This document shows positions 3,877 through 4,420 of a DNA stretch of 25,548 nt, one piece after another. Source of the DNA: a virus. Where the stretch lies: positions 1-25,548 of the IMG/VR virus record IMGVR_UViG_3300050821_002584, one strand, 5' to 3'. The stretch's first letter is position 1. Each line of letters begins with the position of its first letter. The notes beneath the pieces are model-generated. The model did no database searches and had not been told where the DNA came from. It saw only the letters and a list, made by a program, of their open reading frames with translations. Both the position numbers and the translations under genes were made by a program.

Positions 3877-3906
3877 ATTATATAACAAAATGCCATAAGA
3901 AGGCAA
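3877..3906 (-). promoter_or_regulatory. Sigma-70-like promoter for the lysis genes
   Basis: On the minus strand TTGCCT (3906-3901) and TATAAT (3882-3877) are separated by 18 nt, putting the start site about 20-25 nt before the lysozyme ATG. The spacer contains ATGGCATTTTGT, shared with the promoter at 4392-4420. The -35 box overlaps the 3' end of RNA element E. Confidence 0.55.
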
Positions 3907-4028
3907 TCGGCCAGAATTGCACTGGCTAGGTGAGCGTTTCAAGGTCGATATCTGTCGCCTATCTCACCAAGTTATTCATAGACAGTTTCACACTTCACTT
4001 ACGTTTCTCTGTCAACGCCGCGATTGCC
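3902..4028 (-). ncRNA. tRNA-like RNA element E, 127 nt, expanded anticodon arm
   Basis: The ends pair perfectly over 8 bp (GGCAATCG with CGATTGCC). Inside are a D-like arm GCGT-TGACAGAGAA-ACGT and, next to the 3' acceptor strand, a T-like arm GCCAG-TGCAATT-CTGGC. The anticodon arm is replaced by 73 nt with its own possible helices: CTGTCTAT with ATAG-GC-GACAG, and GGTGAG with CTCACC, which compete with GTGA/TCAC. No normal 7-nt anticodon loop is visible. The D-loop lacks the usual GG pair and the T-loop has G at position 55. It is clearly related to element D (same AGTTTAT leader, D-loop and T-loop). No CCA is encoded. Confidence 0.5.
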
Positions 4029-4039
4029 ATAAACTGATT

Positions 4040-4124
4040 GGAAATAGGAACGAGTTGCACGTTCTGTCTCGGCATCTTTTATATATTACATGTCGTGCGC
4101 TTCACTGTCAGCGCGGCTATTTCC
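4040..4124 (-). ncRNA. tRNA-like RNA element D, 85 nt, 14-nt anticodon-arm loop
   Basis: A full cloverleaf can be drawn with no leftover bases: an 8-bp acceptor (GGAAATAG with CTATTTCC), CC, D arm GCGC-TGACAGTGAA-GCGC, A, an anticodon arm CGACAT/ATGCCG with one A-C mismatch and a 14-nt A/T-rich loop, a 5-nt variable region AGACA, and T arm GAACG-TGCAACT-CGTTC. The acceptor could instead be 7 bp plus an extra G-1:C73 pair as in tRNA-His, but there is no 7-nt anticodon loop and no clear identity. The D-loop has no GG and the T-loop starts TG. It lies between tRNA-Gln and element E in one probable transcript. Confidence 0.55.
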
Positions 4125-4131
4125 ATAAACT

Positions 4132-4202
4132 TTTAGAGAGATGGACTCGAACCACCATTATTTGCGTCAAAGGCAAATGTCCTACAATTAGACGATCTCT
4201 AA
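4132..4202 (-). tRNA. tRNA-Gln (anticodon TTG)
   Basis: This is a canonical cloverleaf: 7-bp acceptor TTAGAGA/TCTCTAA, D stem GTCT/GGAC, anticodon arm TTTGC-CTTTGAC-GCAAA with anticodon TTG (reads CAA), a 4-nt variable region, and T arm GGTGG-TTCGAGT-CCATC with a normal T-loop. The discriminator is A and CCA is not encoded. It is the only element of the cluster with standard D- and T-loops. A phage tRNA-Gln(TTG) could support CAA-rich translation of this AT-rich genome, which is inference. Confidence 0.85.
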
Positions 4203-4208
4203 ATAAAA

Positions 4209-4302
4209 CTACGGGGGCAGGGCTTACACCTGCATCGTTGGGGTCAAAACCCAATGCTCTGGCGTATTATCCTAGGTTAGCCCGCTCTTAAGCTACCCCA
4301 TA
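4209..4302 (-). tRNA. tRNA-Gln-like (anticodon TTG) with enlarged D-loop
   Basis: The acceptor TATGGGG/CCCCGTA (one G-T pair), the anticodon arm TTGGG-TTTTGAC-CCCAA with anticodon TTG, the variable region CGAT and the T stem GCAGG/CCTGC all form. The D stem GCTT/GAGC, however, encloses about 30 nt instead of 8-11, and this insert can itself make a GGC/GCC hairpin. The T-loop is TGTAAGC, with the usual T55 and C56 replaced. At 94 nt it is too long for a glutamine tRNA. It is either degenerate or has an unusual fold. It lies 6 nt upstream of the canonical tRNA-Gln. Confidence 0.5.
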
Positions 4303-4312
4303 CCTAACTGGC

Positions 4313-4383
4313 GGACCCAGAACCGGCGTGAAGGACTATACCATAATCCTCGCAAGCGATCGTCTTGCACGTTGTCTGTGTCC
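4313..4383 (-). ncRNA. Structured RNA element A, possibly a degraded tRNA
   Basis: GGACACAG (4383-4376) can pair with CTGGGTCC (4320-4313) over 8 positions with one mismatch, enclosing a GCAAG-ACGATCG-CTTGC hairpin and an AGGA/TCCT hairpin. The total length is 71 nt, tRNA-like, but no normal anticodon or T-loop can be placed. It contains CAACGTGCAAGACGATC, which resembles the T arm of element D. It starts at the expected transcription start of the promoter at 4392-4420. Confidence 0.3.
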
Positions 4384-4391
4384 ATTAATAT

Positions 4392-4420
4392 AATATATCA
4401 CAAAATGCCATCTTCATCAA
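4392..4420 (-). promoter_or_regulatory. Sigma-70-like promoter for the RNA cluster
   Basis: On the minus strand TTGATG (4420-4415) and TATATT (4397-4392) are 17 nt apart, predicting a start around 4383-4386, right at RNA element A. The spacer shares ATGGCATTTTGT with the lysis promoter at 3877-3906. The boxes overlap the last codons of the small gene at 4398-4565. Confidence 0.5.

Follow-up and report, generated by a model that had tools for sequence, protein, structure and literature searches.

In transfer-messenger RNA (tmRNA), the acceptor and T-arm of a transfer RNA (tRNA) are combined with a large insert that replaces the anticodon arm, while in viral tRNA-like structures, YrlA RNA and the 'tRNA scaffold' vector the tRNA fold protects or presents another RNA. 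The elbow of a canonical tRNA is held by two pairs, G18 with U55 (pseudouridine) and G19 with C56, position 55 being the target of TruB. Phage T4 encodes RNAs C and D (species 1 and 2; AF158101 70908-71046 and 71053-71171), which are late stable RNAs of unknown function detected on Northern blots (PMC9697503). Here we describe two elements, D and E, from a 25.5-kb IMG/VR virus fragment (IMGVR_UViG_3300050821_002584; the whole stretch of 25,548 nucleotides (nt) was analyzed and is called the window) that carries P22-type podovirus genes for a stabilisation protein, a lysozyme and Sak4. Both belong to a minus-strand RNA array, flanked by a short open reading frame (ORF) and the lysozyme gene, in the order element 4309-4383, degenerate tRNA-Gln-like element, normal tRNA-Gln, D and E; the T4 RNAs are likewise small phage RNAs beside tRNAs. 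D and E represent a family of 110 distinct members in 102 loci, nearly all of them IMG/VR phage contigs, in which a constant tRNA-like frame surrounds a variable insert.

The frame consists of an 8-bp acceptor stem, 2 nt, a 5-bp D-arm with the loop GACAGNGA, an insert of 32-160 nt that in most cases shows no relation from one member to another, a single A and a 5-bp T-arm with the loop TGCAAYT. In the window its parts are placed as follows.

3902-4028, minus strand: element E; covariance model score 91.5 bits, folding z-score -2.45, homologues found
4021-4028 (GGCAATCG) with 3902-3909 (CGATTGCC), minus strand: acceptor stem of E
4014-4018 with 4001-4005, minus strand: D-stem of E, with D-loop GACAGAGA at 4006-4013
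3927-4000, minus strand: insert of E
3922-3926 with 3910-3914, minus strand: T-stem of E, with T-loop TGCAATT at 3915-3921
4040-4124, minus strand: element D; covariance model score 63.5 bits, folding z-score -2.92
4117-4124 (GGAAATAG) with 4040-4047 (CTATTTCC), minus strand: acceptor stem of D
4110-4114 with 4097-4101, minus strand: D-stem of D, with D-loop GACAGTGA at 4102-4109
4065-4096, minus strand: insert of D
4060-4064 with 4048-4052, minus strand: T-stem of D, with T-loop TGCAACT at 4053-4059

An earlier note on this DNA had described D and E as tRNA-like RNAs, and our covariance model R1, whose training set includes both, places them at exactly the boundaries proposed there. The T-loops are also as described, with G at position 55. 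The acceptor stem of 8 bp is a correction to that account, as are the D-loops, which were given as 10 nt and are in fact 8-nt loops (GACAGNGA) on a 5-bp stem; the closing pair was settled by comparison, being U-A in 19 and G-C in 24 sequences of a 43-member alignment. The loops lack a GG pair as claimed, with A at 18, but one G is kept at 19. D, with a 32-nt insert, is the shortest member of the family. By folding energy each element outdoes 198 of its 200 dinucleotide shuffles (z -2.9 for D and -2.45 for E), which taken alone is modest evidence.

The first relatives were reached through proteins encoded beside the array, which led to six related loci each. One of these loci (L009) contains two clear D/E homologues beside a tRNA-Asn, with a similar spacer; the core they have in common with D and E is the hairpin with loop GACAGNGA and the T-arm GGTGCAATTCC. 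The wider family came from 2.9 million viral contigs, scanned three times with gapped patterns, and from a purpose-written structure check; strict acceptance required seven or more of the 8 acceptor pairs and full 5-bp D- and T-stems. The patterns fixed both loops and two inner T-stem pairs. They did not select the acceptor stem, the D-stem, the three outer T-stem pairs, the 15-nt spacing, C9 or the A before the T-stem, and it is these features that recur: the acceptor lies 15 nt upstream of the D-loop in 84 of 87 cases, C9 is present in 109 of 110 members and the A ahead of the T-stem in 107 of 110. The acceptor 8-mers themselves take 68 different sequences among the 110 members. Family members also occur in loci that the loop pattern did not pick, namely the L009 pair, further copies in the same contigs and L197, which was found by the model.

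The alignment of 43 members shows that the stems are maintained by compensation. Across its 18 pairs, 99.0% of pair cells are standard, a figure to which the acceptance check contributes in part, against 68% after shuffling. Two-sided changes, which are independent of that check, occur in 17 of the 18 pairs (215 cells vs 55 shuffled). None of 500 shuffles reaches any of these measures, and pairing falls to 36-42% when the partners are slid by 1-3 columns. With about 110 covarying homologues, the central inference of the earlier note, that selection and not decay has shaped the stems, receives strong support. D and E adjoin a tRNA-Gln and a degenerate tRNA-Gln-like element and could be taken for ordinary tRNAs that have suffered random deletions and mutations. 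For these two elements that explanation is refuted and hardly credible, as 43 relatives keep 99% of their cells paired with compensatory changes, one loop pair is found nearly throughout, and an anticodon arm is found nowhere.

The search was specific. With E-values up to 0.5 allowed, R1 returned no match in 847 kb of viral contigs that had been retrieved for an unrelated purpose. Another 727 kb yielded a new full-length member (L197) and a partial match, a 17-nt stretch that was the very one for which its contig had been fetched. Among the matches listed for bacterial genomes, a single one out of 120 stretches (L444) proved to be a true element, and its contig encodes a serine recombinase together with phage tail-like proteins; 58 related genomes contain none. 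The family is therefore close to restricted to phage sequences. Rfam 15 has no family that matches D or E at permissive thresholds, the gathering score being reached by tRNA alone, over separate tRNA genes. We found no account of the family in open-licence PMC full text; prior publication elsewhere is possible.

Compared with canonical tRNA (RF00005), the frame has the same acceptor/T stack in the 8+5 bp form of bacterial tRNA-Sec, a 2-nt joint, a 5-bp D-arm, the T-loop signature U-N-C-R-A and, in most members, an A after the acceptor. It differs in having no anticodon arm, in the substitutions U55G and G18A, and in the loops GACAGNGA and TGCAAYT in place of GG and TTCRA; RF00005 does not match D or E even at E-values up to 10. 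The family D-loop reads GAC-A18-G19-N-GA and the T-loop U54-G55-C56-A-A-Y-U, so that both members of the 18/55 pair are changed. Three relatives retain the canonical G18/U55, L445 and L483 with CACGGTGA and TTCGACT, and L197 with GACGGTGA and TTCAATT. Among clean single elements with an 8-nt loop there are 110 with A18/G55, three with G18/U55 and none mixed; a lone A/T row spans two neighboring elements and falls outside this count. Some more distant neighbors have shorter D-loops with either T-loop. These three cases support the earlier proposal that the D-loop and T-loop partners changed together, and are suggestive, rather than proof, of an elbow contact kept by paired change at 18 and 55. 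Scanning with a canonical-loop look-alike of the pattern gave 25 contigs, with the structure present only in the already known L445, and a large sister class of canonical-loop variants was accordingly dropped.

As in tmRNA, the insert occupies the place of the anticodon arm. The family differs from tmRNA in its paired D-arm, the lack of a fixed acceptor identity and a length of only 85-213 nt, and neither an ARAGORN tmRNA nor an Rfam tmRNA match was obtained. The insert was rejected as a carrier of an anticodon arm: none of the 110 members has one after the D-arm, and anticodon-like hairpins elsewhere in the insert occur at the shuffled frequency. Inserts of the first 86 elements fall into 72 groups at an E-value below 1e-3, the largest with five members. 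Members of one group share a well-conserved insert despite differing outer stems, and two-sided changes occur in the inserts themselves, such as those in a hairpin capped by GAAA. In several phages two to five copies are present, which differ in their inserts. A search of each insert's own contig ruled out an antisense role there.

These observations bear on the decoy for a tRNA-targeting nuclease that the earlier note had raised. With no anticodon arm in any of the 110 members, an anticodon nuclease cannot be what such a decoy addresses. In a broader form, the tRNA-like elbow or acceptor would occupy a host defense or tRNA-modifying enzyme, with the insert varying for escape or to tune binding. 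Elbow geometry is indeed retained though position 55, the normal TruB target, is G, and some phages carry multiple copies. We nevertheless judge a decoy improbable, as the hypervariability lies in the insert and not in the frame, and the anticodon nuclease is excluded as addressee.

Generally, the elements sit between co-directional genes of many kinds (terminase, portal, small ORFs), often a few nt past a stop codon and 17-30 nt ahead of a start codon. Because the downstream genes differ, the family is not a cis-regulator or leader of one gene. A common partner protein was also sought and none is obvious, the most shared neighbors being portal, terminase, Sak4-like and a small FTKEEL protein. 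The latter, a phage protein that starts with M(N/S)DFTKEEL, is encoded in 12 of 77 loci (L303, L310, L444, L446 and others) and directly follows the RNA element in L303 and L444. The location between co-directional genes, close to stop and start codons, is what would be expected of punctuation, that is, of tRNA-like sites for cleavage of polycistronic phage transcripts between genes by RNase P and 3' endonucleases of the host, with the insert as filler; the 13-bp acceptor/T stack (8+5) is likewise that of tRNA-type substrates. We regard punctuation as rather unlikely, since filler would not stay conserved and covarying across phages with differing frames, and punctuation would not call for arrays in which several elements follow one another next to true tRNAs.

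The explanation we favor, and consider probable on balance, is that D and E are structured phage RNA genes in which a constant tRNA-like frame holds an interchangeable insert that would act in trans. The structure is observed; the function is our reading of it. The acceptor stem, D-arm, T-arm and elbow contact would hold the insert at the place of the anticodon arm, and host tRNA-processing enzymes would trim and protect the frame to give a stable RNA in infected cells. Such trimming is suggested by the ends of the elements: an A directly follows the acceptor in 51 of 84, NCCA is encoded in seven of 84, as in tRNA 3' ends, and the AU-rich leaders GTTTAT, AATTAT or ATTTAT precede 25 of 84. G+C content is also higher in the elements than in their flanks (51% vs 40%; 80 of 84). 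The targets of the insert would vary, being most plausibly factors of the host or of rival elements, and this would account for insert turnover within a constant frame.

Several points weigh against this explanation. Most members do not encode CCA. The constancy of the loops and of the two inner T-stem pairs is partly selected, because the scan patterns imposed them. Insert structure is seen for subfamilies only, because the folding energy of single inserts does not beat that of control DNA (minimum free energy z -0.47 vs -0.27 for downstream control DNA, p = 0.23). No member was found among 50,697 cultured isolate phages by BLAST with a whole element and with 30-nt consensus modules; the hits were short chance matches, and none of five that were checked is a full element. 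Finally, expression, processing and binding of the elements are predictions.

The remaining features of the array are the following.

4309-4383, minus strand: array element ending GTCCGCCA, from sequence comparison with phage L003
4209-4302, minus strand: degenerate or enlarged tRNA-Gln-like element with T-loop TGTAAGC, an array neighbor outside the D/E family
4131-4203, minus strand: ordinary tRNA-Gln(UUG), part of the array (ARAGORN; Rfam RF00005, 61.8 bits)
4125-4130, minus strand: spacer GTTTAT between tRNA-Gln and D, read directly
4029-4034, minus strand: spacer GTTTAT between D and E, read directly
4395-4410, minus strand: upstream direct repeat TGGCATTTTGTGATAT, at the 3' end of the preceding ORF (ending DEDGIL, stop)
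3880-3895, minus strand: downstream direct repeat TGGCATTTTGTTATAT, which closes the array and is identical to the upstream copy at 15 of 16 positions

D and E thus lie beside a fully normal tRNA-Gln, as the earlier note had it. Its grouping of the tRNA-Gln-like element with D and E fails: the T-arm GCAGG-TGTAAGC-CCTGC is real, but R1 does not match the element, and the Rfam tRNA model gives 20.5 bits over 4217-4281, below the 29-bit cut-off. It is a separate degenerate tRNA, still likely an ordinary one with random deletions and mutations. Element 4309-4383 (minus strand) is identical to L003:9676-9744 over its first 32 nt and diverges in the middle, a pattern of constant ends and variable middle.

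Copies of TGGCATTTTGTKATAT bracket both the window array and a differently stocked array in the related phage L003 (at about 9373 and 9955), whereas L004, also a relative, has a single copy at about 5086 and no array there. Furthermore, at L004:1123-1536 (minus strand) an endonuclease ORF of PHROG 2340 lies between the intact acceptor halves GGCAATCG and CGATTGCC of a family member, where it replaces the remainder of the D-arm, the insert and the start of the T-arm; homing into the frame is possible. Arrays that are bracketed by repeats and variably stocked or absent, together with this ORF, suggest that arrays are gained, lost and restocked. The 16-bp direct repeats, the shared GTTTAT spacer and the L004 ORF could also be read as signs of mobile DNA cassettes, with the outer stems as terminal inverted repeats or recombination sites and any RNA structure secondary. 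As an account of the elements this is very unlikely: terminal repeats need neither D- and T-arms with conserved loops nor an 18/55 swap, and acceptors differ between neighbors of one array, as between D and E. Cassettes may describe how arrays spread rather than what they do. An integron attC site, judged by its core sequence, was rejected, as by eye the recurring GTTTATG (T at the first R) does not fit the GTTRRRY / RYYYAAC core. As search handles, the flanking repeat TGGCATTTTGTNATAT gave matches that were nearly all chance, and TCCGCCAGTTTATGG mostly chance with a few true arrays.

The elements share their arrays with tRNAs and other RNAs, for which a terminal CCRCCA with GTTTAT after it is common. 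A second RNA class has the constant ends GGCCGACGATA (also GGCCGACGATAC) and GAAAATAGGCCRCCA (GGCCRCCA) around a variable middle of about 58-113 nt. It occurs in similar arrays, with 14 distinct matches spread over 11 loci (L004, L010, L012, L239, L450, L455, L461, L491, L498, L521 and L638) and none in reversed sequence. A third array RNA, at L003:9755-9868 and in L164 (minus strand, just upstream of its first member), has the core GCGTGTGCGCGTC...ATAACGCGCCCAATATGGTAGT, then GAGCCAAATAGAC, and ends in CCGCCA or CCACCA. Another, starting GGGAT(G/T)GGAGCTCGAAAAGCTATAAGCGAA, lies downstream of 453 in L269 and upstream of 7605 in L277, where it closes with the T-arm GCGGG-TGAAATT-CCCGT plus ACCA and is thus a further tRNA-like element with a non-canonical T-loop. 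At L003:9398-9502 an intergenic element closed by GCCCTA...TAGGGC and followed by a small ORF is possibly a structured RNA, with folding no better than shuffles.

Again, T4 offers the nearest setting. Its RNAs C and D terminate a tRNA array in which a homing endonuclease gene also occurs, they have tRNA-like 3' features, and the T4 spacer ACCA-AATTAT resembles the CCACCA-GTTTAT of the window. T4 RNA C differs in its canonical T-arm (CCGGG-TTCGAAT-CCCGG) and in lacking a GACAGNGA arm, and R1 finds no match in the T4 region AF158101 68500-73500 (L324). GOLLD, ROOL, OLE and other large structured RNAs are also structured and non-coding, and some are phage-borne; they differ in size and fold, with no match in Rfam scans. 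With tRNA scaffolds no sequence or Rfam relation was found, and the D/E family differs from them as a natural frame that carries different inserts by the dozen. Among the families tested, none has this combination of a constant tRNA-like frame and many exchanged inserts; on a stricter view the D/E family could be called a variant of tRNA-like RNA. More tentatively, the A18/G55 frames and the second class (GGCCGACGATA...GAAAATAGGCCRCCA) might both be modular RNA effectors, tRNA-associated cassettes whose fast-exchanged inserts form an anti-defense arsenal acting in trans on host or competitor targets, with T4 RNAs C and D as possible distant counterparts; we consider this possible, at less than even confidence.

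If confirmed, this would be a large natural RNA family with clean comparative support that is absent from Rfam. It would indicate that the tRNA elbow can apparently be rebuilt by paired change at positions 18 and 55 with the fold preserved. The role of stable non-tRNA RNAs in phage tRNA clusters, such as T4 RNAs C and D, would become testable in many systems. The turnover of inserts hints at arms races at the RNA level, overlooked by protein-centered annotation because such regions resemble empty intergenic DNA.
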